NCBI GenBank assembly: GCA_963965975.1
Contig: OZ014419.1
Location: 4,739,677 to 4,803,676 of the forward strand
Direction: 5' to 3'
DNA from: Xestospongia bergquistia
Taxonomy: Eukaryota; Porifera; Demospongiae; Haplosclerida; Petrosiidae
DNA length: 64,000 bases
Shown here piece by piece: positions 144 through 64,000 of the stretch; the first letter of the stretch is position 1; every line of letters begins with the position of its first letter. Position numbers and translations under genes: made by a program. Under the pieces are notes generated by a model. That model had not been told where the DNA came from. It was given only the letters and a program-made list of their open reading frames with translations, and did no database searches.

Positions 144-161
144 TTCACTCAATAGTCTAAA
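116..161. repeat. Spaced inverted repeat spanning the monomer junction
   Basis: TTTAGACT (116-123) and its complement AGTCTAAA (154-161) flank a 30-base spacer across the chosen monomer boundary. Both words are among the best conserved in the array. In the subfamily reading tccattagact the first arm is shortened by one base. It could extrude as a hairpin, but no function is shown. Confidence 0.75.
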
Positions 162-10641: not shown

Positions 10642-10663
10642 ACGAAACTCTTTATAGCTGTTC
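10642..10663 (+). repeat. Divergent satellite subfamily segment (acgaaactctttatagct)
   Basis: Here the usual palindrome around gttaataac is replaced by acgaaactctttatagctgttc, and the monomer continues cccatggagtcc. The same cluster of changes appears near 1643, 6071, 22505, 24078, 51650 and 60502, always with catggagtcc or cacggagtcc downstream. Seven separate occurrences with identical linked changes indicate a true subfamily rather than independent mutations. Confidence 0.85.
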
Positions 10664-37000: not shown

Positions 37001-40000
37001 TTTTACTTTGTTAACTTCAATCAATAGTCTAAACCTTCCAAAGTCTTTAATTTAAAGACTATAGAGTGTTAAGGCAAACCAACGTACTAAACTGTTAATA
37101 ACAGTTAATTTAGTTAGTCCCATAGAGTCCATTAGACTGAGCCTTTTACTTTGTTAACTTCAATAAATAGTCTAAACCTTCTAAAGTCTTTAATTTAAAG
37201 ACTATAGAGTGTTAAGGCAAACCAACTTACTAACCTGTTAATAACATTTTATTTAGTTAGTCACATAGAATCTTTTACACTGACCTGTTTACTTTGTTAA
37301 CTTCACTCAATAGTCTAAACCATCTAAAGTCTTTAATTTAAAGACTTTAGAGTGTTAAGGCAAACCAACTTACTAACCTGTTAATAACATTTTATTTAGT
37401 TAGTCACATAGAATCTTTTACACTGACCTGTTTACTTTGTTAACTTCACTAAATAGTCTAAACCATCTAAAGTCTTTAATTTAAAGACTTTAGAGTGTTA
37501 AGGCAAACCAACTTCCAAAACTTTAATAAAAGTTTATTTAGTTAGTCCCATAGAGTCCTTTAGACTGAGCTGTTTACTTTATTAACTTCACTCAATAGTC
37601 TAAACCTTCTAAAGTCTTTAATTTAAAGACTTTAGATTGTTAATGCAAACAAACTTACTAAACTGTTAATAACAGTTTATTTAGTTAGTCCCAAAGAGTC
37701 CATTAGACTGAGCTCTTTGCTTTGTTAACTTCACTCAATAGTCTAAACCTTCTAAAGTCTTTAATTTAAAGACTATAGAGTGTTAAGGCAAACCAACCTA
37801 CTAACCTGTTAATAACAGTTTATTTAGTTAGTCCCATAGAATCCTTTAGACTGAGCTGTTTACTTTAGCAACTTCACTCAATAGTCTAAACCTTCTAAAC
37901 TCTTTAATTCAAAGACTTTAGAGTGTTAATGCAAACCAACTTACTAAACTGTTAATAACAGTTTATTTAGCTAGTCCCATAGAGTCCTTTAGACAGAGCT
38001 GTTTACTTTAATAATTTCACTCAATAGTCTAAACCTTCTAAAGTCTTTAATTTAAAGGCTTTAGAGTGCTAATGCAAAGCAACTTACTAAACTGTTAATA
38101 AAAGTTAATTTAGTTAGTCCCATAGAGTCCATTAGACTGAGCTGTTTACTTTGTTAACTTCACTCAATAGTCTAAACCATCTAAAGTCTTTAATTTAAAG
38201 ACTTTAGACTGTTAAGGCAAACCAACTTACTAAACTGTTAATAACATTTTATTTAGTTAGAACCATAGAGTCCTTTAGACTGAGCTGTTTACTTTATTAA
38301 CTTCACTCAATAGTCTAAACCTTCTAAAGTCTTTGATTTAAAGACTTTAGAGTATTAATGCAAACCAACTTACAAAACTGTTAAGAACATTTTATTTAGT
38401 TAGTCCCACAGAGTCCTTTAGATTGAGCTGTTTACTTTATTAACTTCAATCAATAGTGTAAACCTTCTAAACTCTTTAATTTAAAGACTTTAGAGTGTTA
38501 ATGCAAACCAACTTACTAAACTGTTAATAACAGTTCATTTAGTTAGTCCCTTAGATTCCATTAGACTGAGCTGTTTATTTTGTCAACTTCAATCAATAGT
38601 CTAAACCTTCTAAAGTCTTTAATTTAAAGACTTTAGAGTGTTAAGGCAAACCAACTAACTAAACTGTTAATAACATTTATTTAGTTGGTACCATAGAGTC
38701 CTTTAGACTGAGCTGTTTACTTTAATAAATTCACTCAATAGTCTAAACCTTCTAAAGTCTTTAATTTAAAGACTTTAGAGTGTTAAGGCAAACGAACTTA
38801 CTAAGCTGTTAATAACAGTTTATTTAGTTAGTCCCATAGAGTCCTTTAGACTTAGCTGTTTACATTTATTAACTTCACTCAATAGTCTAAACCTTCTAAA
38901 GTCTTTAATTTAAAGACTTTAGATTGTTAATGCAAACCAACTTACTAAACTGTTAATAACAGTTCATTTAGTTAGTCCCATAGAGTCCATTAGACTGAGC
39001 TTTTTACTTTGTTAACTTCAATCAATAGTCTAAACCTTCCAAAGTCTTTAATTTAAAGACTATAGAGTGTTAAGGCAAACCAACGTACTAAACTGTTAAT
39101 AACAGTTAATTTAGTTAGTCCCATAGAGTCCATTAGACTGAGCCTTTTACTTTGTTAACTTCAATAAATAGTCTAAACCTTCTAAAGTCTTTAATTTAAA
39201 GACTATAGAGTGTTAAGGCAAACCAACTTACTAACCTGTTAATAACATTTTATTTAGTTAGTCACATAGAATCTTTTACACTGACCTGTTTACTTTGTTA
39301 ACTTCACTCAATAGTCTAAACCATCTAAAGTCTTTAATTTAAAGACTTTAGAGTGTTAAGGCAAACCAACTTACTAACCTGTTAATAACATTTTATTTAG
39401 TTAGTCACATAGAATCTTTTACACTGACCTGTTTACTTTGTTAACTTCACTAAATAGTCTAAACCATCTAAAGTCTTTAATTTAAAGACTTTAGAGTGTT
39501 AAGGCAAACCAACTTCCAAAACTTTAATAAAAGTTTATTTAGTTAGTCCCATAGAGTCCTTTAGACTGAGCTGTTTACTTTATTAACTTCACTCAATAGT
39601 CTAAACCTTCTAAAGTCTTTAATTTAAAGACTTTAGATTGTTAATGCAAACAAACTTACTAAACTGTTAATAACAGTTTATTTAGTTAGTCCCAAAGAGT
39701 CCATTAGACTGAGCTCTTTGCTTTGTTAACTTCACTCAATAGTCTAAACCTTCTAAAGTCTTTAATTTAAAGACTATAGAGTGTTAAGGCAAACCAACCT
39801 ACTAACCTGTTAATAACAGTTTATTTAGTTAGTCCCATAGAATCCTTTAGACTGAGCTGTTTACTTTAGCAACTTCACTCAATAGTCTAAACCTTCTAAA
39901 CTCTTTAATTCAAAGACTTTAGAGTGTTAATGCAAACCAACTTACTAAACTGTTAATAACAGTTTATTTAGCTAGTCCCATAGAGTCCTTTAGACAGAGC

Positions 40001-43000
40001 TGTTTACTTTAATAATTTCACTCAATAGTCTAAACCTTCTAAAGTCTTTAATTTAAAGGCTTTAGAGTGCTAATGCAAAGCAACTTACTAAACTGTTAAT
40101 AAAAGTTAATTTAGTTAGTCCCATAGAGTCCATTAGACTGAGCTGTTTACTTTGTTAACTTCACTCAATAGTCTAAACCATCTAAAGTCTTTAATTTAAA
40201 GACTTTAGACTGTTAAGGCAAACCAACTTACTAAACTGTTAATAACATTTTATTTAGTTAGAACCATAGAGTCCTTTAGACTGAGCTGTTTACTTTATTA
40301 ACTTCACTCAATAGTCTAAACCTTCTAAAGTCTTTGATTTAAAGACTTTAGAGTATTAATGCAAACCAACTTACAAAACTGTTAAGAACATTTTATTTAG
40401 TTAGTCCCACAGAGTCCTTTAGATTGAGCTGTTTACTTTATTAACTTCAATCAATAGTGTAAACCTTCTAAACTCTTTAATTTAAAGACTTTAGAGTGTT
40501 AATGAAAACCAACTTACTAAACTGTTAATAACAGTTTATTTAGTTAGTCCCATAGAGTCCATTAGACTGAGCTGTTTACTTTATTAACTTCACTCAATAG
40601 TCTAAACCTTTTAAAGTCTTTAATTCAAAGACTATAGAGCGTTAACGCAACCAACTTACTAAACTCTTAATAGCAGTTTATTTAGTTAGTCCCTTAGAGT
40701 CCTTTAGACTGAGCTGTTTACTTTATTAACTTCACTCAATAGTCTAAACCTTCTAAAGTCTTTAATTTAAAGACTTTAGAGTGTTAATGCAAACCAACTT
40801 ACTAAACTGTTAATAAGAGTTTATTTAGTTAGCCCCATAGAGTCCTTTAGACTGAGCTTTTTACTTTGTTAACATCAATCAATAGTCTAAACCTTCTAAA
40901 GTCTTTAATTTAAAGACTAAAGAGTGTTCATGCAAACCAACTTACTAAACTGTTAATAACAGTTTATTTAGTTAGTCCGATGGAATCCTTTAGGCTTAGC
41001 TGTTTACTATATTAACTTCACTCAATAGTCTAAACCTTCTAAAGTCTTTAATTTAAAGACTATAGAGTGTTAAGGCAAACCAACTTACTAAACTATTAAT
41101 AACAGTTTGTTTGTTAGTCCCATAGAATCCTTTAGACTGAGCTGTTTACTTTATTAACTTCACTCAATAGTCTAAACCTTCTAAAGTCTTTAATTTAAAG
41201 ACTTTAGAGTGTTAATGCCAACCAACTTACTAAACTGTTAATAACAGTTTCTTTAGTTAGTCCCATCGAGTCCTTTAGACTTAGCTGTTTACCTTATTAA
41301 CTTCACTCAATATTCTAAACCTTGTAAAGTCTTTAATTTAAAGACTTTAGACTGTTAATGCAAACCAACTTACTAAACTGTTAATAACAGTTTATTTATT
41401 TCGTGCCATAGAATCCTTTAGACTGAGCTGTTTACTTTGTTAACTTGCCTCAATAGTCTAAGCCTTCTAAAGTCTTTAATTTAAAGACTTTAAAGTATTA
41501 ATACAAACCAACTTACTAAACTGTTAATAACAGTTTATTTAGTTAGTCATATAGAATCTTTTAGACTGAGCTGTTTACTTTGTTAACTTCAATCAATAGT
41601 CTAAACTATCTAAAGTCTTTAATTTCAAGACTTTAGAGTGTTAAGGCAAACAAACTTACTAAACTGTTAATAACAGTTTATTTAGTTAGTCCCATAGAGT
41701 CCTTTAGACTGAACTGTTTACTTTATTAACTTCACTGAATAGTCTAAACCTTCTAAAGTCTTTAATTTAAAGACTTTAGAGTGTTAATGCAAACCAACTT
41801 ACTAAACTGTTAATAACAGTTGATTTAGTTAGTCCCTTAGAGTCCATTAGACTGAGCTGTTTACTTTGTCAACTTCAATCAATAGTCTAAACCTTCTAAA
41901 GTCTTTAATTTAAAGACTTTAGAGTGTTAAGGCAAACCAACTTACTAAACTGTTAATAACAGTTTATTTAGTTAGTCCGATAGAGTCCTTTAGACTGAGC
42001 TGTTTACTTTATTAACTTCACTGAATAGTCTACACCTTCTAAAGTCTTTTATTTAAAGACTTTAGATTGTTAATGCAAACCAACTTACTAAACTGTTAAT
42101 AACAGTTCATTTAGTTAGTCCCATAGAGTCCAATAGACGGAGCTTTTTACTTTGTTAACTTCAATCAATAGTCTAAACCTTCTAAAGTCTTTAATTTAAA
42201 GACTATAGAGTGTTAAGGCAAAGCAACCTACTAAACTGTTAATAACAGTTCCTTTAGTTAGTCCCAGAGAGTCCATTAGACTGAGCTTTTTACTTTGTTA
42301 ACTTCAATCAATAGTCTAAGCCTTCTAAAGTCTTTAATTTAAAGACTATAGAGTGTTAAGGCAAACGAACTTACTAAACTGTTAATAACAGTTCATTTAG
42401 TTAGTCCCATAGAGTCTATTAGACTGAGCTGTTTACTTTATTAACTTCAATCAATAGTCTAAACCTTCTAAAGTCTTTAATTTAAAGACTATAGAGTGTT
42501 AAGGCAAACCAACTAACTAAACTGTTATTAACAGTTTATTTAGTTAGTCCCATAGAGTCCTTTAGACTTAGGTGTTTACTTTATTAACTTCACTCAATAG
42601 TCTAAACCTTTTAAAGTCTTTAATTTAAAGACTTTAGAGTGTTAATGCAAACCAACTTACTAAACTGTTAATAACAGTTTATTTAGTTAGTCCCATAGAG
42701 TCCTTTAGACTGAGCTGTTTACTTTGTTAACTTCAATCAATAGTCTAAACCTTCTAAAGTCTTTAATTTAAAGACTATAGAGTGTTAAGGCAAAGCAACT
42801 TACTAAACTGTTAATAACAGTTCATTTAGTTAGTCCCAGAGAGTCCATTAGACTGAGCTTTTTACTGTGTTAACTTCAATCAATAGTCTAAACCTTCTAA
42901 AGTCTTTAATTTAAAGACTATAGAGTGTTAAGGCAAACCAACTTACTAAACTGTTAATAACAGTTCATTTAGTTAGTCCCATAGAGTCTATTAGACTGAG

Positions 43001-45217
43001 CTGTTTACTTTGTTAACTTCAATCAATAGTCTAAACCTTCTAAAGTCTTTATTTTAAAGACTATAGAGTGTTAAGGCAAACCAACTTACTAAAATGTTAA
43101 TAACAGTTCACTTAGTTAGTCCCATAGAGTCCATTAGACTGAGCTGTTTACTTTGTTAACTTCAATCAATAGTCTAAACCTTCTAAAGTCTTTAATTTAA
43201 AGACTTTAGAGTGTTAATGCAAACCAACTTACTAAACTGTTAATAACAGTTCATTTAGTTAGTCCCTTAGAGTCCATTAGACTGAGCTGTTTATTTTGTC
43301 AACTTCAATTAATAGTCTAAACCTTCTAAAGTCTTTAATTTAAAGACTTTAGAGTGTTAAGGCAAACCAACTAACTAAACTGTTAATAACATTTATTTAG
43401 TTGGTACCATAGAGTCCTTTAGACTGAGCTGTTTACTTTAATAAATTCACTCAATAGTCTAAACCTTCTAAAGTCTTTAATTTAAAGACTTTAGAGCGTT
43501 CAGGCAAACGAACTTACTAAGCTGTTAATAACAGTTTATTTAGTTAGTCCCATAGAGTCCTTTAGACTGAGCTGTTTACATTATTAACTTCACTCAATAG
43601 TCTAAACCTTCTAAAGTCTTTAATTTAAAGACTTTAGATTGTTAATGCAAACCAACTTACTAAACTGTTAATAACAGTTCATTTAGTTAGTCCCATAGAG
43701 TCCATTAGACTGAGCTTTTTACTTTGTTAACTTCAATCAATAGTCTAAACCTTCCAAAGTCTTTAATTTAAAGACTATAGAGTGTTAAGGCAAACCAACG
43801 TACTAAACTGTTAATAACAGTTCATTTAGTTAGTCCCATAGAGTCCATTAGACTGAGCCTTTTACTTTGTTAACTTCAATAAATAGTCTAAACCTTCTAA
43901 AGTCTTTAATTTAAAGACTATAGAGTGTTAAGGCAAACCAACTTACTAACCTGTTAATAACATTTTATTTAGTTAGTCACATAGAATCTTTTACACTGAC
44001 CTGTTTACTTTGTTAACTTCACTCAATAGTCTAAACCATCTAAAGTCTTTAATTTAAAGACTTTAGAGTGTTAAGGCAAACCAACTTACTAACCTGTTAA
44101 TAACATTTTATTTAGTTAGTCACATAGAATCTTTTACACTGACCTGTTTACTTTGTTAACTTCACTCAATAGTCTAAACCATCTAAAGTCTTTAATTTAA
44201 AGACTTTAGAGTGTTAAGGCAAACCAACTTCCAAAACTTTAATAACAGTTTATTTAGTTAGTCCCATAGAGTCCTTTAGACTGAGCTGTTTACTTTATTA
44301 ACTTCACTCAATAGTCTAAACCTTCTAAAGTCTTTAATTTAAAGACTTTAGATTGTTAATGCAAACAAACTTACCAAACTGTTAATAACATTTTATTTAG
44401 TTAGTCCCAAAGAGTCCATTAGACTGAGCTCTTTGCTTTGTTAACTTCACTCAATAGTCTAAACCTTCTAAAGTCTTTAATTTAAAGACTATAGAGTGTT
44501 AAGGCAAACCAACTTACTAACCTGTTAATAACAGTTTATTTAGTTAGTCCCATAGAATCCTTTAGACTGAGCTGTTTACTTTAGCAACTTCACTCAATAG
44601 TCTAAACCTTCTAAACTCTTTAATTCAAAGACTTTAGAGTGTTAATGCAAACAAACTTACTAAACTGTTAATAACAGTTTATTTAGCTAGTCCCATAGAG
44701 TCCTTTAGACAGAGCTGTTTACTTTAATAATTTCACTCAATAGTCTAAACCTTCTAAAGTCTTTAATTTAAAGGCTTTAGAGTGCTAATGCAAAGCAACT
44801 TACTAAACTGTTAATAAAAGTTAATTTAGTTAGTCCCATAGAGTCCATTAGACTGAGCTGTTTACTTTGTTAACTTCACTCAATAGTCTAAACCATCTAA
44901 AGTCTTTAATTTAAAGACTTTAGACTGTTAAGGCAAACCAACTTACTAAACTGTTAATAACATTTTATTTAGTTAGACCCATAGAGTCCTTTAGACTGAG
45001 CTGTTTACTTTATTAACTTCACTCAATAGTCTAAACCTTCTAAAGTCTTTGATTTAAAGACTTTAGAGTATTAATGCAAACCAACTTACAAAACTGTTAA
45101 GAACATTTTATTTAGTTAGTCCCACAGAGTCCTTTAGATTGAGCTGTTTACTTTATTAACTTCAATCAATAGTGTAAACCTTCTAAACTCTTTAATTTAA
45201 AGACTTTAGAGTTTTAA
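34050..45217 (+). repeat. Large segmental duplication within the satellite (about 4.4 kb blocks, 47-monomer offset)
   Basis: The order of variant monomers in about 34050-38500 recurs in about 40767-45217, offset 6716-6718 (47 x 143 minus a few bases). Markers include ttagccccatag, tcccatcgagtcc, tttcgtgccatag, ttagtcccagagag, acatttatttagttggtacc and ctttgatttaaag. One monomer pair near 34340/41060 differs strongly inside the matched block, which suggests local conversion or replacement. The right part (36472-38472) has its own extra tandem copy at 38473-40504. Confidence 0.85.
36472..40504 (+). repeat. Fourteen-monomer tandem duplication (2001 bp), copies essentially identical
   Basis: 36472-38472 is repeated at 38473 onward with an offset of 2001. 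Reading both copies side by side I found no difference until 40505, where tgaaaacc faces tgcaaacc at 38504. They share odd variants such as gtttacatttattaac, cttccaaaactttaataaaag, gcccatt-type changes and cacatagaatcttttacactgacc (twice per copy). Identity over 2 kb in a diverged array indicates a very recent exchange, or an assembly error. Confidence 0.9.
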
Positions 45218-46054
45218 TGAAAACCAACTTACTAAACTGTTAATAACAGTTTATTTAGTTAGTCCCATAGAGTCCTTTAGACTGAGCTGTTTACTTTATT
45301 AACTTCACTCAATAGTCTAAACCTTCTAAAGTCTTTAATTTAAAGACTTTAGATTGTTAATGCAAACAAACTTACTAAACTGTTAATAACAGTTTATTTA
45401 GTTAGTCCCAAAGAGTCCATTAGACTGAGCTCTTTGCTTTGTTAACTTCACTCAATAGTCTAAACCTTCTAAAGTCTTTAATTTAAAGACTATAGAGTGT
45501 TAAGGCAAACCAACTTACTAACCTGTTAATAACAGTTTATTTAGTTAGTCCCATAGAATCCTTTAGACTGAGCTGTTTACTTTAGCAACTTCACTCAATA
45601 GTCTAAACCTTCTAAACTCTTTAATTAAAAGACTTTAGAGTGTTAATGCAAACCAACTTACTAAACTGTTAATAACAGTTTATTTAGCTAGTCCCATAGA
45701 GTCCTTTAGACAGAGCTGTTTACTTTAATAATTTCACTCAATAGTCTAAACCTTCTAAAGTCTTTAATTTAAAGGCTTTAGAGTGCTAATGCAAAGCAAC
45801 TTACTAAACTGTTAATAAAAGTTAATTTAGTTAGTCCCATAGAGTCCATTAGACTGAGCTGTTTACTTTGTTAACTTCACTCAATAGTCTAAACCATCTA
45901 AAGTCTTTAATTTAAGGACTTTAGACTGTTAAGGCAAACCAACTTACTAAACTGTTAATAACATTTTATTTAGTTAGACCCATAGAGTCCTTTAGACTGA
46001 GCTATTTACTTTATTAACTTCACTCAATAGTCTAAACCTTCTAAAGTCTTTGAT

Positions 46055-46058
46055 TTAA
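46055..46058. other. Left TTAA target-site duplication
   Basis: TTAA immediately precedes the CCCTTT end of the element. It is the right-hand TTAA of a satellite palindrome whose left TTAA had been lost by a substitution (ctttgatttaaag instead of ctttaatttaaag). Confidence 0.95.
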
Positions 46059-46070
46059 CCCTTTTCGCGC
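46059..46070 (+). repeat. Left terminal inverted repeat
   Basis: CCCTTTTCGCGC, matching the complement of the right end at 11 of 12 bases (the seventh differs). It is followed by the palindrome gcgcatgcgc (46067-46076), which overlaps it and is not mirrored at the other end. Asymmetric subterminal sequence is usual for piggyBac elements. Confidence 0.92.
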
Positions 46071-46704
46071 ATGCGCATAAAGCAAGTAACTACTGCCAAC
46101 GCACGAGTATTTTCAGGGTTGGAGTGGTTGCGTTTAAGCTCTTGTATCATCTCTAAACTGTCTCCTAGAAGTTTAGCTGTTTCAAGTTTGCTTCAATATG
46201 GATACCTGGATGTTTTGTTCTTCTAATGAATTGTGTATTCGTCGTCTACAAGGTAAGCATTATGTTATAACTACGCACACATTGTAAATGACGTATAAAG
46301 CATCTTTCAAGAGTCCCCATGTTTTCTTTATTTGAAATAGACTTAGATGATAGTAGGAATGAGTAGAATGTTTCTTATTTCTTCGTTGCAGTGTTTTTTT
46401 GCGTTGTAGTACTATTTCTTTGAGTGGGCGTGGCCTTCTGTTTTTGGAATGTACTTATCTTGTGGTTGTAAAATAGAGCAATTAGGCATTTTTGAGGATA
46501 GTGAAATAGGTGATCACTAGCTACAGTGTAAGGTTATTAGATGAACAAAAAGCTTCAGCTTTAGTATGTTGCTTTTGTCTGTAGCAAGACATGTGAAGCT
46601 TCTAGTAAGATGTATCATAATTACAAACCACAATTTCAAGACAATAGTTATACAATGCAATACAACACAGTACAAACAGTGACAAGTAAGTAATATTTAT
46701 ATAG
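46071..46704. other. Non-coding left flank inside the transposon (3' side of transposase)
   Basis: About 630 bases without a convincing gene, downstream of the transposase stop. A short plus-strand reading frame (46198-46287, 29 codons) starts ATGGATACC and crosses a good donor-like site, caaggtaagc at 46249-46258, so an outward-facing or host-like first exon is conceivable but unsupported. A second AATAAA on the minus strand lies at 46327-46332. The rest is AT-rich and carries no motif I recognise. Confidence 0.6.
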
Positions 46705-46710
46705 TTTATT
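46705..46710 (-). terminator. Candidate polyadenylation signal AATAAA
   Basis: On the minus strand AATAAA overlaps the last base of the transposase stop codon (46710-46712). A very short 3' untranslated region would follow. The alternative AATAAA at 46327-46332 lies about 380 bases downstream. Only RNA evidence could say which is used. Confidence 0.4.
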
Positions 46711-48678
46711 TATGTAGCTAAATGATAATTAACAAGTTCGTGGTAACGTTCAAAACAAATGTCAGGGTGTAATGGTGGATTATGTGTGCATGTTTTACAA
46801 TAAAAGATAGTGTCATGTCTTTGTCCTCTTTTAGCATTGTTGCATACAATACACCTACGTCTTGACTGTCCTCGTTCAATATAATGACGTCCCTCGAACC
46901 TCTCCTCCAACCTGGTAGGCCGCATGAGCTGTCGTCTTACATCTCCTACAGGCAACCCCTCACACAATCCAACTACAAGCTTACGCCGATAGTCAGAATG
47001 TGACAAATGATTTGAGGAAGTTGCCTTATAGAGGATATAAGAATTCACAAGGCTGACCTCCAGCAACCAGAACATGAGCTTCCTCCACCACTTGATACTC
47101 CTCCTTCCAAATGAATAGTAACATCCATACTGATCAGCTATATCAACTCCACCCATGCTCTGGTTGTACTTGTCAACAACCAGAGGTTTCTCCCTGGTTT
47201 CTCCACGGCGACCTCGAACTGTCGTCATTGACCCCTGATAGACAGTGGAGATCATTACTGTTGGCTTCCCTTTGTCCCTCCATGCCAACACCAATTTCTT
47301 TCCATCTCTCCACGCCTTAGTTTCTCCCTTATTCAATTTGAATCTTTTGCCTCTTACCACACTTGGAAGCTGTTGCCGAGTCCTAACTAATGTCCCAGTG
47401 TAACCAGTGTTACACCTCTCTAGCTCATCAACCAAAGGGACACTAGAATAGAGCCGGTCAGCATAAATATGATGACCCTTGTGAAGATAATTTTCAACAA
47501 GAGCCAACACTATCTGGGTGAGGCTTGGGAGTTCAGGGTTACAATTTGACAGATATATGTCCTTTGTCTCACCTCCAGTGTACGGGATTATATTGAGAAT
47601 AAACCCTGTAGCACTATCAGCAAGAACAAAGGACTTGAGGCCCCATTTAATCGGTTTCAGTGGACAATATTGGCGGAAACCAACCCTACCCTTGAAACCA
47701 ACCATTGTTTCATCCACTGAAATCTCACGTCCAGGGTAGAAAACACTCTGGAATGTTGTAAGCAGTTGATCGAGAAGAGGCTTAACTTTGTCAATTCGTC
47801 GTAGTCTTGTTGATGTTGTGTCTTCTTGTAGATGTAACATCCAGAAGATCTCTTCAAACCTGTTACGTGGAAGAACATCATGGAAGAACGGTATATAACT
47901 CTCCCATGATGTCTTCCAATAGCTAGCTCGTTCCGGGCAGTGCATTACCCCCATGTTTATAATAACCGCCAGGACTGCCTTCATTTCTTCTGTGGTGACT
48001 GGTCTCCACTTCACCCATCTGGATTTTGGAGTTAATTTTCCACCTCTCTCCTTCTCAGCAATAACATCACCAGCATACTCATTTGTACCATCAACAAGCA
48101 TCTGAATTATTACGTCATTAAAGAAAAGAGAAAAGAAATCCAGTGGGGAAGAGTCTGCCGATAGTGAAATTTTTGGTCCTGGCTGTTCCATGAATGGGAT
48201 AGCTGTTGGTGGAATGTCAGCTTGGAGGTCGTCCACTGGTATCCACGGTTCAGCTCCATCACCTCCTTTCCCGTTACTACTACAACCACCTCGTCCCCTA
48301 ACACCACTGTAACAACCACCTCGTCCTCTACCACCACCTCCACGTCCCCTGCCACGCCTATCACGACCTCCACGTACACTTCCACTACCACTTACTATTA
48401 CAGGTAAGTTTTATAATGATAATACAATATATTGCAAAGTAATTTTTATCTTACCATTCAATTGTTCTTTTTCAGTCTCATCAACCGCAACAATATTATC
48501 AGCTACTACATCAATTTCATCATCTATATATATATATAATTTTTTTGCTTTATTGAAATAAAATATAATTAAATATTATAATACCTAAGTCTTCATCAAA
48601 AATGTCACTAAAATCGCTCTCATCTTCATCACTAAACAGCCTTATAATAACATCTTCTGTGGTCAACTTATCTGCCAT
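46710..48678 (-). CDS. piggyBac-type transposase, three-exon model, 615 residues
   Basis: This is a DDE/D transposase that would cut and paste the surrounding element at TTAA. The model joins exons 48678-48585, 48523-48455 and 48394-46710 (minus strand). Both introns begin GT, end AG and keep phase 1. The start is ATG at 48676-48678, with A at -3 and G at +4. The domains in order are an acidic, Ser/Asp-rich N-terminus (residues 14-36), an Arg/Gly-rich stretch (62-91), the family core beginning near PLDFFSLFF with the TNEYA motif (158-162), and the catalytic aspartates. These are D282 in ISVDETMVGFKGR, D367 in YADRLYSS, and D472 (with D475) in MGGVDIADQ. A C-terminal Cys/His domain follows (C569, C572, C587, C590, H597, C601, H606). 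Length fits the family (insect piggyBac is 594). No frameshift or stop breaks the third exon. The longest continuous frame opens at GTG (48236), which is not a credible eukaryotic start. If the introns are wrong, the first in-frame ATG is 48189-48191. Confidence 0.93.
48395..48454 (-). other. Predicted intron 2 of the transposase gene (60 bp)
   Basis: On the minus strand it starts GTAAGA after AATG and ends GTAATAG. Removal joins G to TA as a valine codon and carries the frame through 52 codons into the long exon. Reading straight through from exon 2 meets a TAA stop within the intron. The acceptor has a weak pyrimidine tract, so the exact 3' site is less certain than the donor. Confidence 0.75.
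48524..48584 (-). other. Predicted intron 1 of the transposase gene (61 bp)
   Basis: On the minus strand it starts GTATTA and ends TATATAG after an alternating TA run. Removal joins G to AT as an aspartate codon and extends the acidic N-terminus (…DEDL-DDEID…). AT-rich content and small size suit a compact eukaryotic intron. Confidence 0.75.
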
Positions 48679-48813
48679 TGTGTAATGTTTTCACAGCTGC
48701 TAACTAAGGTGTTTTACGGTATAAGGGAGTGGTTTATTAAAGTAAAATTGGAAAAAAGGTCATGTTCTGTGAAATACTGAAGTTTCTGGGTAAATCGATC
48801 AACGTACGAGATG
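48679..48813 (-). promoter_or_regulatory. Presumed 5' untranslated leader of the transposase gene
   Basis: AT-rich sequence between the TATA-like box and the start codon, with no ORF of its own on the coding strand. An insect-type initiator word TCAGT lies at 48776-48780 (minus strand), about 40 bases from the TATA-like box, a little farther than the usual spacing. The transcription start is not determined. Confidence 0.4.
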
Positions 48814-48820
48814 TTATATA
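48814..48820 (-). promoter_or_regulatory. TATA-like box for the transposase gene
   Basis: TATATAA on the minus strand, about 140 bases upstream of the predicted start codon and about 80 bases inside the right end of the element. Promoters lying just inside the end upstream of the transposase are normal for piggyBac elements. Confidence 0.5.
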
Positions 48821-48826
48821 CACGAA

Positions 48827-48885
48827 ACGCATAAATGCGTCGTCGGCGCTGGTGAACAATCAGCAACAGACGCATAAATGCGTCG
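48827..48885. repeat. Subterminal direct repeats near the right end
   Basis: The 16-base word acgcataaatgcgtcg occurs at 48827-48842 and again at 48870-48885. Each copy is nearly palindromic (the second is gacgcat-aa-atgcgtc). They lie just inside the right terminal repeat and upstream of the TATA-like box. Only a weak echo (gcgcataaagc, 46073 region) is seen at the left end. Such repeats are candidates for transposase binding. Confidence 0.8.
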
Positions 48886-48888
48886 GTG

Positions 48889-48900
48889 GCGCGGAAAGGG
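48889..48900 (-). repeat. Right terminal inverted repeat
   Basis: On the minus strand CCCTTTCCGCGC, matching the left end at 11 of 12 bases and directly abutting TTAA at 48901. Confidence 0.92.
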
Positions 48901-48904
48901 TTAA
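48901..48904. other. Right TTAA target-site duplication
   Basis: TTAA follows the right end of the element and continues as agactttagagtattaatgc. This is the same sequence that follows the single TTAA in the empty copy at 50473. Confidence 0.95.
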
Positions 48905-50472
48905 AGACTTTAGAGTATTAATGCAAACCAACTTACAAAACTGTTAAGAACATTTTATTTAGTTAGTCCCACAGAGTCCTTTAGATTGAGCTGTTTACTT
49001 TATTAACTTCAATCAATAGTGTAAACCTTCTAAACTCTTTAATTTAAAGACTTTAGAGTGTTAATGAAAACCAACTTACTAAACTGTTAATAACAGTTTA
49101 TTTGGTTAGTCCCATAGAGTCCATTAGACTGAGCTGTTTACTTTATTAACTTCACTCAATAGTCTAAACCTTTTAAAGTCTTTAATTTAAAGACTATAGA
49201 GCGTTAACGCAACCAACTTACTAAACTCTTAATAGCAGTTTATTTAGTTAGTCCCTTAGAGTCGTTTAGACTGATCTGTTTACTTTATTAACTTCACTCA
49301 ATAGTCTAAACTTTCTAAAGTCTTTAATTTAAAGACTTTAGAGTGTTAATGCAAAAAAAACTACTAAACTGTTAATAACAGTTTATTTAGTTAGTCCCAT
49401 AGAGTCCTTTAGACTAAGCTGTTTACTTTATTAACTTCACTCAATAGTCTAAACCTTCTAAAGTCTTTAATTTAAAGACTTTAGATTGTTAATGCAAACC
49501 AACTTACAAAACTGTTAATAACAATTCATTTAGTTAGTCCCATTGAGTCCATTAGACTGAGCTGTTTACTTTGTTAACTTCAATCAATAGTCTAAACCTT
49601 CTAAAGTCTTTAATTTACAGACTATAGGATGTTAAGGCAAACCAACTTACCAAAGTGTTAATAACAGTTCATTTAGTTAGTCCCATAGAGTCCATTAGAC
49701 TGAGCTGTTTACTTTGTTAACTTCAATCAATAGTCTAAACCTTCTAAAGTCTTTAATTTAAAGACTATAGAGTGTTAAGGCAAAGCCACTAACTAAACTG
49801 TTAATAACAGTTTATTTAGTTAGTCCCACAGAGTCCTTAAGACTGAGCTGTTTGCTTTATTAACTTCAATCAATAGTCTAAACCTTCTAAAGTCTTTAAT
49901 TTAAAGACTATAGAGTGTTAAGGCAAACCAACTTACTAACCTGTTAATAACAGTTTATTTAGTTAGTCCCATAGAATCCTTTAGACTGAGCTGTTTACTT
50001 TAGCAACTTCACTCAATAGTCTAAACCTTCTAAACTCTTTAATTAAAAGACTTTAGAGTGTTAATGCAAACCAACTTACTAAACTGTTAATAACAGTTTA
50101 TTTAGCTAGTCCCATAGAGTCCTTTAGACAGAGCTGTTTACTTTAATAATTTCACTCAATAGTCTAAACCTTCTAAAGTCTTTAATTTAAAGGCTTTAGA
50201 GTGCTAATGCAAAGCAACTTACTAAACTGTTAATAAAAGTTAATTTAGTTAGTCCCATAGAGTCCATTAGACTGAGCTGTTTACTTTGTTAACTTCACTC
50301 AATAGTCTAAACCATCTAAAGTCTTTAATTTAAGGACTTTAGACTGTTAAGGCAAACAAACTTACTAAACTGTTAATAACATTTTATTTAGTTAGACCCA
50401 TAGAGTCCTTTAGACTGAGCTATTTACTTTATTAACTTCACTCAATAGTCTAAACCTTCTAAAGTCTTTGAT

Positions 50473-50476
50473 TTAA
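50473..50476. other. Empty target site (paralogous, uninterrupted)
   Basis: In the tandem copy of the insertion block, ctttgatttaaagactttag is continuous with a single TTAA and no footprint. Further uninterrupted relatives with the same ctttgatttaaag word lie near 38331, 40332, 45047, 57467 and 58466. Confidence 0.92.
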
Positions 50477-52871
50477 AGACTTTAGAGTATTAATGCAAAC
50501 CAACTTACAAAACTGTTAAGAACATTTTATTTAGTTAGTCCCACAGAGTCCTTTAGATTGAGCTGTTTACTTTATTAACTTCAATCAATAGTGTAAACCT
50601 TCTAAACTCTTTAATTTAAAGACTTTAGAGTGTTAATGAAAACCAACTTACTAAACTGTTAATAACAGTTTATTTGGTTAGTCCCATAGAGTCCATTAGA
50701 CTGAGCTGTTTACTTTATTAACTTCACTCAATAGTCTAAACCTTTTAAAGTCTTTAATTTAAAGACTATAGAGCGTTAACGCAACCAACTTACTAAACTC
50801 TTAATAGCAGTTTATTTAGTTAGTCCCTTAGAGTCGTTTAGACTGATCTGTTTACTTTATTAACTTCACTCAATAGTCTAAACTTTCTAAAGTCTTTAAT
50901 TTAAAGACTTTAGAGTGTTAATGCAAAAAAAACTACTAAACTGTTAATAACAGTTTATTTAGTTAGTCCCATAGAGTCCTTTAGACTAAGCTGTTTACTT
51001 TATTAACTTCACTCAATAGTTTAAACCTTCTAAAGTCTTTAATTTAAAGACTTTAGATTGTTAATGCAAACCAACTTACAAAACTGTTAATAACAATTCA
51101 TTTAGTTAGTCCCATTGAGTCCATTAGACTGCGCTGTTTACTTTGTTAACTTCAATCAATAGTCTAAACCTTCTAAAGTCTTTAATTTACAGACTATAGG
51201 ATGTTAAGGCAAACCAACTTACCAAAGTGTTAATAACAGTTCATTTAGTTAGTCCCATAGAGTCCATTAGACTGAGCTGTTTACTTTGTTAACTTCAATC
51301 AATAGTCTAAACCTTCTAAAGTCTTTAATTTAAAGACTATAGAGTGTTAAGGCAAAGCCACTAACTAAACTGTTAATAACAGTTTATTTAGTTAGTCCCA
51401 CAGAGTCCTTAAGACTGAGCTGTTTGCTTTATTAACTTCAATCAATAGTCTAAACCTTCTAAAGTCTTTAATTTAAAGACGTTAGAGTGTTAATGCAAAC
51501 CAACTTACTAAACTGTTAATAACATTTTATTTAGTTAGTCCCATAGAGTCCTTTAGACTGAGCTGTTTACTTTATTAACTTCACTCAATAGTCTAAACCT
51601 TCTAAAGTCTTTAATTTAAAGACTTTAGAGTGTTAATGCAAACCAACTTACGAAACTCTTTATAGCTGTTCATTTAGTTAGTCCCATGGAGTCCTTTAGA
51701 CTGAGGTGTTTACTTTTTTAACTTCACTCAATAGTCTAAACCTTCTAAAGTCTTTTATTTAAAGACTTTAGAGTGTTAATGCAAACCAACTTACTAAACT
51801 GTTAATAACAGTTCATTTAGTTAGTCCCATAGAGTCCATTAGACTGAGCTTTTTACTTTGTCAACTTCAATCAATAGTCTAAACCTTCTAAAGTCTTTAA
51901 TTTAAAGACTTTAGTTTGTTAAGGCAAACCAACTTACTAAACTCTTAATAACAGTTTATTTAGTTGGTCCCATAGAGTCCTTTAGACTGAGCTGTTTACT
52001 TTAATAACTTCACTCAATAGTCTAAACCTTCTAAAGTCCTTAATTTAAAGACTTTAGAGTGTTAAGGCAAACGAACTTACTAAACTGTTAATAACAGTTT
52101 ATTTAGTTAGTCCCATATAGTCCTTTAGACTGAGCTGTTTACTTTGTTAACTTCAATCAATAGTCTAAACCTTCTAAAGTCTTTAATTTAAAGACTATAG
52201 AGTGTTAAGGCAAACCAACTTACTAAACTGTTAATAACAGTTCCTTTAGTTAGTCCCATAGAGTCTATTAGACTGAGCTGTTTACTTTGTTAACTTCAAT
52301 CAATAGTCTAAACCTTCTAAAGTCTTTAATTTAAAGACTATAGAGTGTTAAGGCCAAGCAACTAACTAAACTGTTAATAACAGTTTATTTAGTTAGTGCC
52401 ATAGAGTCCTTTACACTGAGCTGTTTACTTTATTAACTTCACACTATAGTCTAAACCTTCTAAAGTCTTTAATTTAAAGACTTTAGAGTGTTAATGCAAA
52501 CCAACTTACTAAACTGTTAATAACAGTTTATTTAGTTAGTGCCTTAGAGTCCATTAGCCTGAGCTGTTTACTTTGTCAACTACAATCAATAGTGTAAACC
52601 TTCTAAAGTCTTTAATTTAAAGACTTTAGAGTGTTAAGGCAAACGAACTTACTAAAGTGTTAATAACAGTTTATTTAGTTAGTCCCATAGAGTCCATTAG
52701 ACTGAGCTGTTTACTTTATTAACTTCACTCAATAGTCTAAACCTTCTAAAGTCTTTAATTTAAAGACTTTAGAGTGTTAATGCAAACCAACTTACTAAAC
52801 TGTTAATAACAGTTCATTTAGTCAGACCCTTAGAGTCCATTAGACTGAGCTGTTTACTTTGTCAACTTCAA

Positions 52872-54913
52872 TCAATAGTCTAAACCTTCTAAAGTCTTTA
52901 ATTTAAAGACTATTGAGTGTTAAGGCAAACCAACTTACTAAACTGTTAATAACAGTTTATTTAGTTGGTGCCATAGATCCTTTAGACTGAGCTGTTTACT
53001 TTATTAACTTCAATCTATAGTCTAAACCTTCTAAAGTCTTTAATTTAAAGACTTTAGAGTGTTAAGGCGAACGAACTTACTAAACTGTTAATAACAGTTT
53101 ATTTAGTTAGTCCGATAGAGTCCTTTAGACTGAGCTGTTTACTTTATTAACTTCACTTAATAGTCTAAACCTTCTAAAACCTTTAATTTAAAGACTTTAG
53201 ATTGTTAATGCAAACCAACTTACTAAACTGTTAATAACAGTTCATTTAGTTAGTCCCATAGAGTCCATTAGACGGAGCTTTTTACTTTGTGAACTTCAAT
53301 CAATAGTCTAAACCTTCTAAAGTCTTTAATTTAAAGACTATAGAGTGTTAAGGCAAAGCAACCTACTAAACTGTTAATAACAGTTTATTTAGTTAGACCC
53401 ATAGAGTCCATTAGACTGAGCTTTTTACTATGTTAACTTCAATCAATAGTCTAAACCTTCTAAAGTCTTTAATTTAATGTCTATAGAGTGTTAAGGCAAA
53501 CCAACTTACTAAACTGTTAATAACAGTTCATTTAGTTAGTCCCGTAGAGTCTATAAGACTGAGCTGTTTACTTTGTTAACTTCAATCAATAGTCTAAACC
53601 TTCTAAAGTCTTTAATTTAAAGACTATAGAGTGTTAAGGCAAAGCAACTAACTAAACTGTTAATAACAGTTTATTTAGTTAGTCCCATAGAGTCCTTTAG
53701 ACTTAGGTGTTTACTTTATTAACTTCACTCAATAGTCTAAACCTTCTAAAGTCTTTAATTTAAAGACTTTAGACTGTTAATGCAAACCAACTTACTAAAC
53801 TGTTAATAACAGTTTATTTAGTTAGTCCCATAGAGTCCTTTAGACTGCGCTGTTTACTTTGTTAACTTCACTCAATAGTCTAAACCTTCTAAAGTCTTTA
53901 ATTTAAAGACTATTGAGTGTTAAGGCAAACCAACTTACTAAACTGTTAATAACAGTTTATTTAGTTGGTGCCATAGATCCTTTAGACTGAGCTGTTTACT
54001 TTATTAACTTCAATCTATAGTCTAAACCTTCTAAAGTCTTTAATTTAAAGACTTTAGAGTGTTAAGGCGAACGAACTTACTAAACTGTTAATAACAGTTT
54101 ATTTAGTTAGTCCGATAGAGTCCTTTAGACTGAGCTGTTTACTTTATTAACTTCACTTAATAGTCTAAACCTTCTAAAACCTTTAATTTAAAGACTTTAG
54201 ATTGTTAATGCAAACCAACTTACTAAACTGTTAATAACAGTTCATTTAGTTAGTCCCATAGAGTCCATTAGACGGAGCTTTTTACTTTGTGAACTTCAAT
54301 CAATAGTCTAAACCTTCTAAAGTCTTTAATTTAAAGACTATAGAGTGTTAAGGCAAAGCAACCTACTAAACTGTTAATAACAGTTTATTTAGTTAGACCC
54401 ATAGAGTCCATTAGACTGAGCTTTTTACTATGTTAACTTCAATCAATAGTCTAAACCTTCTAAAGTCTTTAATTTAATGACTATAGAGTGTTAAGGCAAA
54501 CCAACTTACTAAACTGTTAATAACAGTTCATTTAGTTAGTCCCGTAGAGTCTATAAGACTGAGCTGTTTACTTTGTTAACTTCAATCAATAGTCTAAACC
54601 TTCTAAAGTCTTTAATTTAAAGACTATAGAGTGTTAAGGCAAAGCAACTAACTAAACTGTTAATAACAGTTTATTTAGTTAGTCCCATAGAGTCCTTTAG
54701 ACTTAGGTGTTTACTTTATTAACTTCACTCAATAGTCTAAACCTTCTAAAGTCTTTAATTTAAAGACTTTAGACTGTTAATGCAAACCAACTTACTAAAC
54801 TGTTAATAACAGTTTATTTAGATAGTCCCATAGAGTCCTTTAGACTGCGCTGTTTACTTTGTTAACTTCACTCAATAGTCTAAACCTTCTAAAGTCTTTA
54901 ATTTAAAGACTAT
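52872..54913 (+). repeat. Seven-monomer tandem duplication (offset 1000 bp)
   Basis: 52872-53871 is repeated at 53872-54871 and the match extends to 54913. Shared rare words are gactattgagtg, ttggtgccatagatcc, ttcaatctatag, ggcgaacgaac, ctaaaacctttaattt and cccgtagagtctataag. I saw two differences, at 53480/54480 (t/a) and 53822/54822 (t/a). A diverged third version lies at about 61570-62480. Confidence 0.9.
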
Positions 54914-57900
54914 AGAGTGTTAATGCAAACCAACTTACTAAAGTATTAATAACAGTTTATTTAGTTAGTCCCGTGGAATCCTTTAGGCTTAGCTGTTTAC
55001 TTTATTAACTTCACTCAATAGTCTAAACCTTCTAAAGTCTTTAATTTAAAGACTATATAGTGTTAAGGCAAACCAACTTACTAAACTATTAATAACAGTT
55101 TGTTTAGTTAGTCCCATAGAATCCTTTAGACTGAGCTGTTTACTTTATTAAGTTGACTCAATAGTCTAAACCTTCTAAAGTCTTTAATTTAAAGACTTTA
55201 GAGTGTTAATGCCAACCAACTTACTAAACTGTTAATAACAATTTCTTTAGTTAGTGCCATAGAGTCCTTTAGACTGAGCTGTTTACTTTATTAACTTCAC
55301 TCAATACTCTAAACCTTGTAAAGTCTTTAATTTAAAGACTTTAGACTGTTAATGCAAACCAACTTACAAAACTGTTAATAACAGTTTATTTAGTTAGTCA
55401 CATAGAATCTTTTAGACTGAGCTGTTTACTTTATTAACTTCACTCAATAGTCTAAACCTTCTAAAGTCTTTAATTTAAAGACTTTAGAGTTTTAATGCAA
55501 ACAAACTTACTAAACTGTTAATAACAGTTCATTTAGTTAGTCCCTTAGAGTCCATTAGACTGAGCTGTTTACTTTGTCAACTTCAATCAATAGTCTGAAC
55601 CTTCTAAAGTCTTTAATTTAAAGACTTTAGAGTGTTAAGGCAAACCAACTTACTAAACTGATAATAACAGTTTATTTAGTTGGTACCATAGAGTCCTTTA
55701 GACTGAGCTGTTTACTTTAATAAATTCACTCAATAGGCTAAACCTTCTAAAGTCTTTAATTTAAAGACTTTAGAGTGTTAAGTCAAACGAACTTACTAAA
55801 CTGTTAATAACAATTTATTTAGTTAGTCCCATATAGTCCTTTAGACTGAGCTGTTTACTTTATTAACTTCACTCAATAGTCTAAACCTTCTAAAGTCTTT
55901 AATTTAAAGACTTTAGATGGTTAATGCAAACCAACTTACTAAACTGTTAATAACAGTTCATTTAGTTAGTCCCATAGAGTCCATTAGACTGAGCTTTTTA
56001 CTTTGTTAACTTCAATCAATAGTTTAAACCTTCTAAAGTCTTTAATTTAAAGACTATGGAGTGTTAAGGCAAACCAACGTACTAAACTGTCAACAACAGT
56101 TCATTTAGTTAGTCCCATAGAGTCCATTAGACTGAGCTTTTTACTTTGTTAACTTCAATAAATAGTCTAAACCTTCTAAAGTCTTTAATTTAAAGACTAT
56201 AGAGTGTTAAGGCAAACCAACTTACTAAACTGTTAATAACAGTTCATTTAATTAGTCCCACAGAATCTATTAGACTGAGCTGTTTACTTTGTTAACTTCA
56301 ATCAATAGTCTAAACCTTCTAAAGTCTTTAATTTAAAGACTATAGAGTGTTAAGGCAAACCAACTTACTAAACTGTTAATAACAGTTCATTTAGTTAGTC
56401 CCATAGAGTCTATTAGACTGAGCTGTTTACTTTGTTAACTTCAATCAATAGTCTAAAACTTGTAAAGTCTTTAATTTAAAGACTTTAGATTGTCAATGCA
56501 AACAAACTTACTAAACTGTTAATAACATTTGATTTAGTTAGTCACATAGAAACCTTTAGACTGAGCTGTTTACTTTGTTAACTTCACTCAATAGTCTAAA
56601 CCATCTAAAGTCTTTAATTTAAAGACTTTAGAGTGTTAAGGCAAACCAACTTCCTAAACTGTTAATAACAGTTTATTTAGTTAGTCCCATAGAGTCCTTT
56701 AGACTGAGCTGTTTACTTTATTAACTTCACTCAATAGTCTAAACCTTCTAAAGTCTTTAATTTAAAGACTTTAGATTGTTAATGCAAACAAACTTACTAA
56801 ACTGTTAATAACAGTTTATTTAGTTAGTCCCAAAGAGTCCATTAGACTGAGCTGTTTGCTTTGTTAACTTCAATCAATAGTCTAAACCTTCTAAAGTCTT
56901 TAATTTAAAGACTATAGAGTTTTAAGGCAAACCAACTTACTAAACTGTTAATAACAGTTTATTTAGTTAGTCCCATAGAATCCTTTAGACTGAGCTGTTT
57001 ACTTTAGCAACTTCACTCAATAGTCTAAACCTTCTAAACTCTTTAATTCAAAGATTTTAGAGTATTAATGCAAACCAACTTACTAAACTGTTAATAACAG
57101 TTTATTTAGCTAGTCCCACAGAGTCCTTTAGACAGAGCTGTTTACTTTAATAATTTCACTCAATAGTGTCTAACCTTCTAAAGTTTTTAATTTAAAGGCT
57201 TTAGAGTGCTAACGCAAAGCAACTTACTAAACTGTTAATAAAAGTTAATTTAGTTAGTCCCATAGACTCCATTAGACTGAGCTGTTTATTTGTTAACTTC
57301 ACTCAATAGTCTAAACCATCTAAAGTCTTTAATTTAAAGACTTTAGACTGTTAAGGCAAACCAACTTACTAAGCTGTTAATAACATTTTTAGTTAGACCC
57401 ATAGAGTCCTTTAGTCTGAGCTGTTTACGTTATTAACTTCACTCAATAGTCTAAACCTTCTAAAGTCTTTGATTTAAAACCTTTAGAGTATTAATGCAAA
57501 CCAACTTACAAAACTGTTAAGAACATTTTATTTAGTTAGTCCCACAGAGTACTTTAGATTGAGCTGGTTACTTTATTAACTTCAATCAATAGTGTAAACC
57601 TTCTAAACTCTTTAATTTAAAGACTTTAGAGTGTTAATGCAAACCAACTTACTAAACTGTTAATAACAGTTTAGTTAGTTAGTCCCATAGAGTCCTTTAG
57701 ACTGAGCTGTTTACTTTATTAACTTCACTCAATAGTCTAAACCTTTTAAAGTCTTTAATTTAAAGACTATAGAGCGTTAACGCAACCAACTTACTAAACT
57801 CTTAATAGCAGTTTATTTAGTTAGTCCCTTAGAGTCCTTTAGACTGAGCTGTTTACTTTATTATTTCAATCAATAGTCTAAACCTTCTAAAGTCTTTAAT

Positions 57901-58736
57901 TTAAAGACTTTAGAGTGTTAATGCAAACCAACCTAATAAACTGTTAATAACAGTTTAATTAGTTAGTCCCATAGAGTCCTTTAGACTAAGCTGTTTACTT
58001 TATTAACTTCACTCAATAGTCTAAACCTTCTAAAGTCTTTAATTTAAAGACTTTAGATTGTTAATGCAAACCAACTTACAAAACTGTTAATAACAATACA
58101 TTTAGTTAGTCCCATTGAGTCCATTAGACTGAGCTGTTTACTTTGTTAACTTCCATCAATAGTCTAAACCTTCTAAAGTCTTTAATTTACAGACTATAGG
58201 GTGTTAAGGCAAACCAACTTTCCAAAGTGTTAATAACAGTTCATTTAGTTAGTCCCATAGAGTCCATTAGACTGAGCTGTTTACTTTGTTAACTTCAATC
58301 AATAGTCTAAACCTTCTAAAGTCTTTAATTTAAAGACTTTAGACTGTTAAGGCAAACCAACTTACTAAACTGTTAATAACATTTTATTTAGTTAGACCCA
58401 TAGAGTCCTTTAGACTGAGCTGTTTACTTTATTAACTTCACTCAATAGTCTAAACCTTCTAAAGTCTTTGATTTAAAGACTTTAGAGTATTAATGCAAAC
58501 CAACTTACAAAACTGTTAAGAACATTTTATTTAGTTAGTCCCACAGAGTCCTTTAGATTGAGCTGTTTACTTTATTAACTTCAATCAATAGTGTAAACCT
58601 TCTAAACTCTTTAATTTAAAGACTTTAGAGTGTTAATGAAAACCAACTTACTAAACTGTTAATAACAGTTTATTTAGTTAGTCCCATAGAGTCCTTTAGA
58701 CTGAGCTGTTTACTTTATTAACTTCACTCAATAGTC

Positions 58737-60016
58737 TAAACCTTTTAAAGTCTTTAATTTAAAGACTATAGAGCGTTAACGCAACCAACTTACTAAACTC
58801 TTAATAGCAGTTTATTTAGTTAGTCCCTTAGAGTCGTTTAGACTGATCTGTTTACTTTATTAACTTCACTCAATAGTCTAAACTTTCTAAAGTCTTTAAT
58901 TTAAAGACTTTAGAGTGTTAATGCAAAAAAACTACTAAACTGTTAATAACAGTTTATTTAGTTAGTGCCATAGAGTCCTTTAGACTAAGCTGTTTACTTT
59001 ATTAACTTCACTCAATAGTCTAAACCTTCTAAAGTCTTTAATTTAAAGACTTTAGATTGTTAATGCAAACAAACTTACTAAACTGTTAATAACAGTTTAT
59101 TTAATTAGTCCCATAGAGTCCATTAGACTGAGCTTTTTACTTTGTTAACTTCAATCAATAGTTTAAACCTTCTAAAGTCTTTAATTTAAAGACTATAGAG
59201 CGTTAACGCAACCAACTTACTAAACTCTTAATAGCAGTTCATTTAGTTAGTCCCTTAGAGTCGTTTAGACTGATCTGTTTACTTTATTAACTTCACTCAA
59301 TAGTCTAAACTTTCTAAGTCTTTAATTTAAAGACTTTAGAGTGTTAATGCAAAAAAACTACTAAACTGTTAATAACAGTTTATTTAGTTAGTGCCATAGA
59401 GTCCTTTAGACTAAGCTGTTTACTTTATTAACTTCACTCAATAGTCTAAACCTTCTAAAGTCTTTAATTTAAAGACTTTAGATTGTTAATGCAAACCAAC
59501 TTACAAAACTGTTAATAACAATTCATTTAGTTAGTCCCATTGAGTCCATTAGACTGAGCTGTTTACTTTGTTAACTTCAATCAATAGTCTAAACCTTTTA
59601 AAGTCTTTAATTTAAAGACTATAGAGCGTTAACGCAACCAACTTACTAAACTCTTAATAGCAGTTTATTTAGTTAGTCCCTTAGAGTCGTTTAGACTGAT
59701 CTGTTTACTTTATTAACTTCACTCAATAGTCTAAACTTTCTAAAGTCTTTAATTTAAAGACTTTAGAGTGTTAATGCAAAAAAACTACTAAACTGTTAAT
59801 AACAGTTTATTTAGTTAGTGCCATAGAGTCCTTTAGACTAAGCTGTTTACTTTATTAACTTCACTCAATAGTCTAAACCTTCTAAAGTCTTTAATTTAAA
59901 GACTTTAGATTGTTAATGCAAACCAACTTACAAAACTGTTAATAACAATTCATTTAGTTAGTCCCATTGAGTCCATTAGACTGAGCTGTTTACTTTGTTA
60001 ACTTCAATCAATAGTC
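58737..60016 (+). repeat. Three-monomer higher-order repeat, three tandem copies
   Basis: The word gagcgttaacgcaacc occurs at 58771, 59198 and 59624, spacings 427 and 426 (3 x 143 minus 2-3). Each unit also shows gtcgtttagactgatc, aactttcta and gcaaaaaaactac in the same order. The unit is a shorter offspring of the block seen at 49190-49480 and 50750-51040. Confidence 0.88.
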
Positions 60017-60879
60017 TAAACCTTCTAAAGTCTTTAATTTACAGACTATAAGGTGTTAAGGCAAACCAACTTACCAAAGTGTTAATAACAGTTCATTTAG
60101 TTAGTCCCATAGAGTCCATTAGACTGAGCTGTTTACTTTGTTAACTTCAATCAATAGTCTAAACCTTCTAAAGTCTTTAATTTAAAGACTATAGAGTGTT
60201 AAGGCAAAGCAACTAACTAAACCGTTAATAACAGTTTATTTAGTTAGTCCCACAGAGTCCTTAAGACTGAGCTGTTTACTTTATTAACTTCAATCAATAG
60301 TCTAAACCTTCTAAAGTTTTTAATTTAAAGACTTTAGAGTGTTAATGCAAACCAACTTACTAAACTGTTAATAACATTTTATTTAGTTAGTCCCATAGAG
60401 TCCTTTAGACTGAGCTGTTTACTTTATTAACTTCACTCAATAGTCTAAACCTTCTAAAGTCTTTAATTTAAAGACTTTAGAGTGTTAATGCAAACCAACT
60501 TACGAAACTCTTTATAGCTGTTCATTTAGTTAGTCCCATGGAGTCCATTAGACTGAGCTGTTTACTTTTTTAACTTCACTCAATAGTCTAAACCTTCTAA
60601 AGTCTTTTATTTAAAGACTTTAGAGTGTTAATGCAAACCAACTTACTAAACTGTTAATAACAGTTCATTTAGTTAATCCCATAGAGTCCATTAGACTGAG
60701 CTGTTTACTTTGTCAACTTCAATCAATAGTCTAAACCTTCTAAAGTCTTTAATTTAAAGTCTTTAGTTTGTTAAGGCAAACCAACTTACTAAACTCTTAA
60801 TAACAGTTTATTTAGTTGGTCCCATAGAGTCCTTTAGACTGAGCTGTTTACTTTAATAACTTCACTCAATAGTCTAAAC

Positions 60880-60910
60880 CTTCTAAAGTCTTTAACAAAC
60901 GAACTTACTA
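60880..60910 (+). repeat. Satellite monomer with a 24 bp deletion
   Basis: agtctttaacaaacgaac replaces the usual run, removing about 24 bases: the right arm of the 27 bp palindrome plus the following gagtgttaagg segment. The paralogous monomer near 52050 is full length, so the loss happened after those blocks were copied. Confidence 0.85.
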
Positions 60911-63900: not shown

Positions 63901-64000
63901 CCAACTTACTAAACTGTTAATAACAGTTCATTTAGTTAGTCCCATAGAGTCCATTAGACTGAGCTTTTTACTTTGTTAACTTCAATCGATAGTCTAAACC

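Follow-up and report, generated by a model that had tools for sequence, protein, structure and literature searches.

A window of 64,000 nucleotides from the sponge Xestospongia bergquistia (assembly GCA_963965975.1, contig OZ014419.1, here C9:4,739,677-4,803,676, within a 146.5-Mb genome) consists of a 143-bp satellite array whose single interruption is a piggyBac element. The sequence itself points to an animal, since the genome encodes a nuclear receptor with RXR and HNF4 as its nearest structures and gave no match to chlorophyll-binding proteins; the single receptor locus would fit a sponge. The satellite block that carries the element is followed in tandem by a nearly identical block that lacks it. 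The arrangement probably arose by a tandem duplication of the block, followed by insertion of the element into one of the two copies.

Filled and empty copies of one satellite block

After removal of the element and one TTAA, the two parts of the filled block agreed with the empty block at 1,608 of 1,611 bases (0.19% divergence), at an offset of 1,572 bp, or 10.99 monomers. The three mismatches between the filled and the empty block are C at 45940 against A at 50358, C at 49449 against T at 51021, and A at 49560 against C at 51132. Such divergence is far below the background of the array, because the sequences flanking the block differ at the same shift by approximately 3-12 per 100 bases over several hundred bases on each side. 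The original prediction had described an 11-monomer block with a near-identical tandem copy devoid of the element, and the alignment confirmed this description together with its coordinates, except that both block starts had been placed one base late (45452 and 49870 are correct). The TTAA is doubled only at the filled block. As also predicted, the empty copy thereby fixes the ends of the element and its target-site duplication exactly (Table 1).

The matching tract exceeds the shift by 39 bases; therefore, one 39-base sequence stands at the start of the first copy, at the junction between the copies and at the end of the second. A displaced crossover within this tract would explain the tandem duplication. 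We propose that the array grows and turns over through unequal exchange, and that one exchange in the 39-bp identical tract could have duplicated the 11-monomer block. Later, the transposase would have joined a piggyBac element of a recently active family to one TTAA in one copy, duplicating the TTAA, and the second copy would represent the untouched target.

Duplicate pairs and paralogous sites were scanned in C9:4,719,000-4,903,676, a 185-kb part of the array. Nine pairs of at least 600 bp with at most 0.5% divergence were found, and seven of them are near-adjacent, with a shift of no more than 1.7 times their length, which favors a duplication preceding the insertion. The filled and empty blocks rank third by identity among the nine pairs. 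Short duplications are thus routine in the C9 array, which is a mosaic where distant copies have segments in common.

Order of insertion and duplication

All nine other copies of the target site in the scanned region (up to 8 mismatches in 200) are empty, which indicates that the empty state is ancestral. Seven of these nine paralogues were compared to polarize the block differences, with F, I and J in register at 49449 and 49560. At 45940, the base of the filled block is common to all seven, and at the other two sites F, I and J carry the base of the filled block. Where the paralogues are readable, all three differences are consequently derived in the empty block. Across the 1,611 bp, the filled flank bears no derived change at any position open to polarization, which argues for a short residence of the element. 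In a tree of five blocks based on 756 colinear bases, the filled and empty blocks are sisters (97/93 support), and the other three copies are empty.

The original prediction offered insertion after duplication or precise excision. Both routes could produce the arrangement, but the list was incomplete, because exchange between homologues and conversion could produce it as well. In an exchange between homologues, some chromosomes would have carried the element in a then single block while others lacked it, and one crossover between the two kinds, out of register by 11 monomers, would have placed the filled state next to the empty one directly. Such a displaced exchange is expected to leave an identical junction tract like that of 39 bp, the block divergence could be allelic, and displaced duplications are frequent in the array. 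No sequence feature separates this route from insertion after duplication. Since it requires the insertion to have been polymorphic at the time of the exchange, we regard it as unlikely, albeit deserving some weight.

Precise excision is less probable still. The block would have been filled before the duplication, and the element would later have left the second copy seamlessly, restoring the TTAA. PiggyBac excision can be seamless (PMC7351741), and the transposase frame is open. Insertion after duplication is nevertheless simpler, because the nine paralogous sites are empty and two events suffice, as opposed to the three (insertion, duplication and loss) that excision demands. The element differs from its nearest relative at 3 of 2,842 bases, a divergence nominally lower than that between the blocks (3 of 1,611), though not significantly so.

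An assembly artefact, in which a filled and an empty haplotype of one block were written consecutively, seems very improbable. Satellite arrays are hard to assemble and the two blocks could, at this divergence, be alleles, but the whole arrangement spans only about 6 kb, which would fit within ordinary long reads, its duplication junction is a clean 39 bp, and several more short duplications with comparable divergence occur in the array. That an empty paralogue converted a filled second block can hardly be credited despite the mosaic array and its many empty donors, because donor variants would be expected near the site and the readable paralogues share the base of the empty block at none of its three differing positions.

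Several observations weigh against duplication followed by insertion. The inner branch that separates the pair from the other copies in the tree (0.0027) exceeds each of the two end branches of the pair (0 and 0.0013), so an element inserting ahead of the duplication would not have been short of time. The age difference between element and duplication is not significant (Poisson P = 0.23, equal rates), and the counts are small throughout, with three block differences and three element differences. The evidence comes from one genome assembly with the array read in part, and precise excision would yield an identical empty block, leaving no trace to test.

The element and its relatives

The element combines a TTAA duplication, inverted repeats starting with CCC, a DDE_Tnp_1_7 domain, the catalytic aspartates and a zinc finger, all features of piggyBac membership. 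Its inverted terminal arms (46055-46070 and 48889-48904) comprise 16 nt including the TTAA and are 94% complementary. The minus strand holds a 508-amino-acid (aa) frame starting at GTG. On the main exon, Pfam DDE_Tnp_1_7 (PF13843) scored 283.9 bits against a cut-off of 22.4, and zf-Tnp_2 (PF13842), the C-terminal cysteine-rich zinc finger, 27 bits against 24. The three catalytic aspartates, numbered D268, D346 and D447 in Trichoplusia ni piggyBac and located by counting along the alignment, are aligned with D in the T. ni chain and in piggyBat. A GT-AG search gave 459 open solutions with one or two introns, and by a simple splice score the predicted 615-aa gene model, with introns of 61 and 60 bp, ranked first among them. 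The transposase frame appears intact and might encode an active enzyme; the longest open stretch of 566 codons is kept in six of eight compared copies and is shorter in L003 and L008.

Table 1. Coordinates of the satellite blocks, the element and the empty target sites in the window
Feature	Position	Strand	Basis
143-bp satellite array, all of the window except the element	1..64000	+	array seen from ~C9:4.72 Mb to >4.9037 Mb
Target-site paralogue D, empty, differing at 2 of 200 bases	38338..38341	+	site scan
Target-site paralogue F, empty, differing at 2 of 200 bases	40339..40342	+	site scan
Target-site paralogue C, empty, differing at 1 of 200 bases	45054..45057	+	site scan
Filled satellite block, left part, ending in left TTAA	45452..46058	+	block alignment
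Left TTAA of target-site duplication	46055..46058	.	sequence
piggyBac element, 2842 bp, ends CCCTTT...AAAGGG	46059..48900	.	alignment to empty block; genome copies
Transposase gene, predicted exons 48678-48585, 48523-48455, 48394-46710, 615 aa	46710..48678	-	GT-AG search; Pfam; alignments
Subterminal repeat, two copies 48827-48849 and 48870-48892, 91% identical	48827..48892	.	sequence
Right TTAA of target-site duplication	48901..48904	.	sequence
Filled satellite block, right part	48905..49908	+	block alignment
39-bp tract common to end of first and start of second block; probable crossover tract	49870..49908	+	matching tract 1611 bp vs shift 1572 bp
Sister block without element, 1611 bp, differs from filled block at 3 bases, holds all three derived states	49870..51480	+	block alignment, paralogues, tree
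Unoccupied TTAA matching the insertion site	50473..50476	+	sequence, site scan
Target-site paralogue G, empty, differing at 1 of 200 bases	58473..58476	+	site scan

A genome search with the element, in which 40 of 76 candidates were scored, found at least 71 matching pieces, at least 12 of them full length, all copy counts resting on the matches scored. Among these matches there is no second copy on C9. The three nearest copies differ by 3, 11 and 24 substitutions (the last also by one insertion or deletion column) in about 2,842 bases; each has TTAA on both sides and flanks without a match to the satellite of the window. The nearest copy lies on another contig. All three bases at which it differs are unique to the window element among eight aligned copies, and the relative has no unique base of its own. 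The family in this genome is thus not confined to old, degraded copies.

These near-identical copies indicate that the family moved recently, whatever the history of the blocks, and are stronger support for recent activity than the block pair. The claim that either history of the blocks implies recent activity therefore held only in part: the recent activity itself is supported by the copies elsewhere, but the blocks alone do not imply it, because the routes by exchange or conversion date the duplication or conversion rather than the insertion.

Target choice and multiplication within arrays

TTAA occurs 33.5 times per kb of satellite, as opposed to 9.1 per kb in 75 kb of neighboring non-satellite DNA, and exceeds the dinucleotide expectation in the satellite (1,910 against ~1,112 in 57 kb). 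The satellite totals an estimated ~7.2 Mb, from 26,152 exact 17-mers at ~3.65 per kb, for which the C9 array and 22 kb of C13 provided the only calibration. This estimate and the two densities place ~16% of all TTAA in satellite. Among full-length copies, 3 of 10 insertion events fall in satellite (12 copies, with a trio on C13 counted once; P = 0.21). With the addition of nine short copies, of which eight were covered at their two junctions and one, at C13:2.90 Mb, is partial, the count is 5 of 19 (P = 0.18). The 19 events are counted apart from other partial or rearranged copies, including pieces on C1, C3, C4, C11 and C13; no satellite was seen at the junctions of such copies on C12, at C13:4.40 and 4.43 Mb and at C1:16.89 Mb, nor at the left junctions of those at C1:8.88 and C5:5.47 Mb. 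We rejected satellite-specific targeting as unneeded, because insertions in satellite are no commoner than TTAA density predicts, without significant excess over ~16%.

Target sites of the 12 full-length copies are TTAA on both sides in eight, TTAA/CTAA in three that derive from one amplified insertion, and CTAG/CTAG in one. Non-TTAA target duplications were seen at L033/L034 on C7 (CTAG on both sides), L062/L063 on C10 (CTAA on both sides) and L005-L007 on C13 (TTAA/CTAA). CTAA and other exceptions to TTAA are mentioned in PMC10813416.

The C13 trio is more informative than the pair in the window. The full-length copies L007, L005 and L006 lie at 3.67, 3.86 and 4.07 Mb, spaced by 188 and 210 kb, with the same satellite flanks at their junctions. 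In two of them, the element differs at one base and the near flank at five of 3,000 bases, and the right flank shows 11 differences over its first 7 kb, before an insertion or deletion breaks the register; they have ~8.5 kb of near-identical flank in common (1.5 kb left, 7 kb right). The near-identity of both element and flanks means that copying of the array included a filled block. The third copy is older, its element differing from those of the other two at 9 and 10 positions and its flanks being 1.1-2.7% apart (287 gap columns on the left). The insertion site of the trio is bordered by TTAA at one end and by CTAA at the opposite end. Among unoccupied sites in the C13 flanks, two of the three flanks being near-duplicates, the 12 that match best comprise eight CTAA and four CTAT, and the insertion may have occurred at CTAA, with the element supplying one TTAA. 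Judged by these copies, the C13 array has multiplied the element.

It is conceivable, and we suggest it tentatively, that the TTAA-rich satellite serves as both landing ground and copier: elements would land by TTAA density, and unequal exchange would multiply filled blocks, as on C13, or set a filled block beside an empty one, as in the window. If so, the copy number of the element would rise without further transposition. Satellite turnover can multiply a cut-and-paste element, as the C13 copies show, and an empty site adjoining a fresh insertion gives element boundaries without recourse to other genomes. Neither point overturns known biology; the window represents known kinds of element and array behavior in an unusually clean arrangement, and the locus is clean for population tests of the order of transposition and array exchange.

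The element resembles T. ni piggyBac and piggyBat in its TTAA target duplication, CCC...GGG ends, DDE_Tnp_1_7 domain with three aligned aspartates and zinc-finger tail. It differs in its distant sequence (PDB matches with E 1.6e-55 and 2e-32), in two small predicted introns and in that some members of its family sit at CTAG or CTAA. Pokey (PMC3849761) is a piggyBac-superfamily element in Daphnia ribosomal DNA with a specific 28S target; it likewise occupies a tandem array with unit turnover and has deletion derivatives (miniature inverted-repeat transposable elements, MITEs). In contrast, the array occupied here is a satellite, insertion is in keeping with TTAA density, and of the 12 full-length copies 7 are found away from the satellite. 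Transposons inserted in centromeric satellites appear to be a comparable case, with elements landing in repetitive arrays that themselves duplicate, whereas the present case concerns a cut-and-paste TTAA element with an exact empty site adjoining, in an array known by sequence only. Titles and opening lines of abstracts on piggyBac with satellites, TTAA, excision, target sites, arrays and sponges do not describe the arrangement, which may still be in print.

The C9 array lies in the interior of its contig, at 4.7 of 7.5 Mb, and the genome contains its motifs in thousands of copies; this position is no proof of a centromere. The array continues beyond C9 4.9037 Mb, the limit of the sequence read. 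At the left, the first 8 kb (C9:4,719,677-4,727,676) agree with the satellite consensus about half as closely as the interior does and form a decayed edge of the array.

An internal-deletion derivative of 928-929 bp was found at eight loci, on C3, C4, C5, C10, C11 (three) and C15. Two of these loci (C3, C10) are in satellite, and three (C5, C11, C15) are in telomere-like TTTAGGG-containing DNA near contig ends. The short copy at C3:4.229 Mb (L052/L053) occupies the same monomer position in the satellite, ATTTAA/AGA, as the window element. The end of C15 (L074) is a (TTTAGGG)n array with 71 units in 500 bases, a contig end unusual for an animal. Such an array was not seen at the seven other contig ends read; three-unit TTTAGGG matches number 1,977 in the genome.

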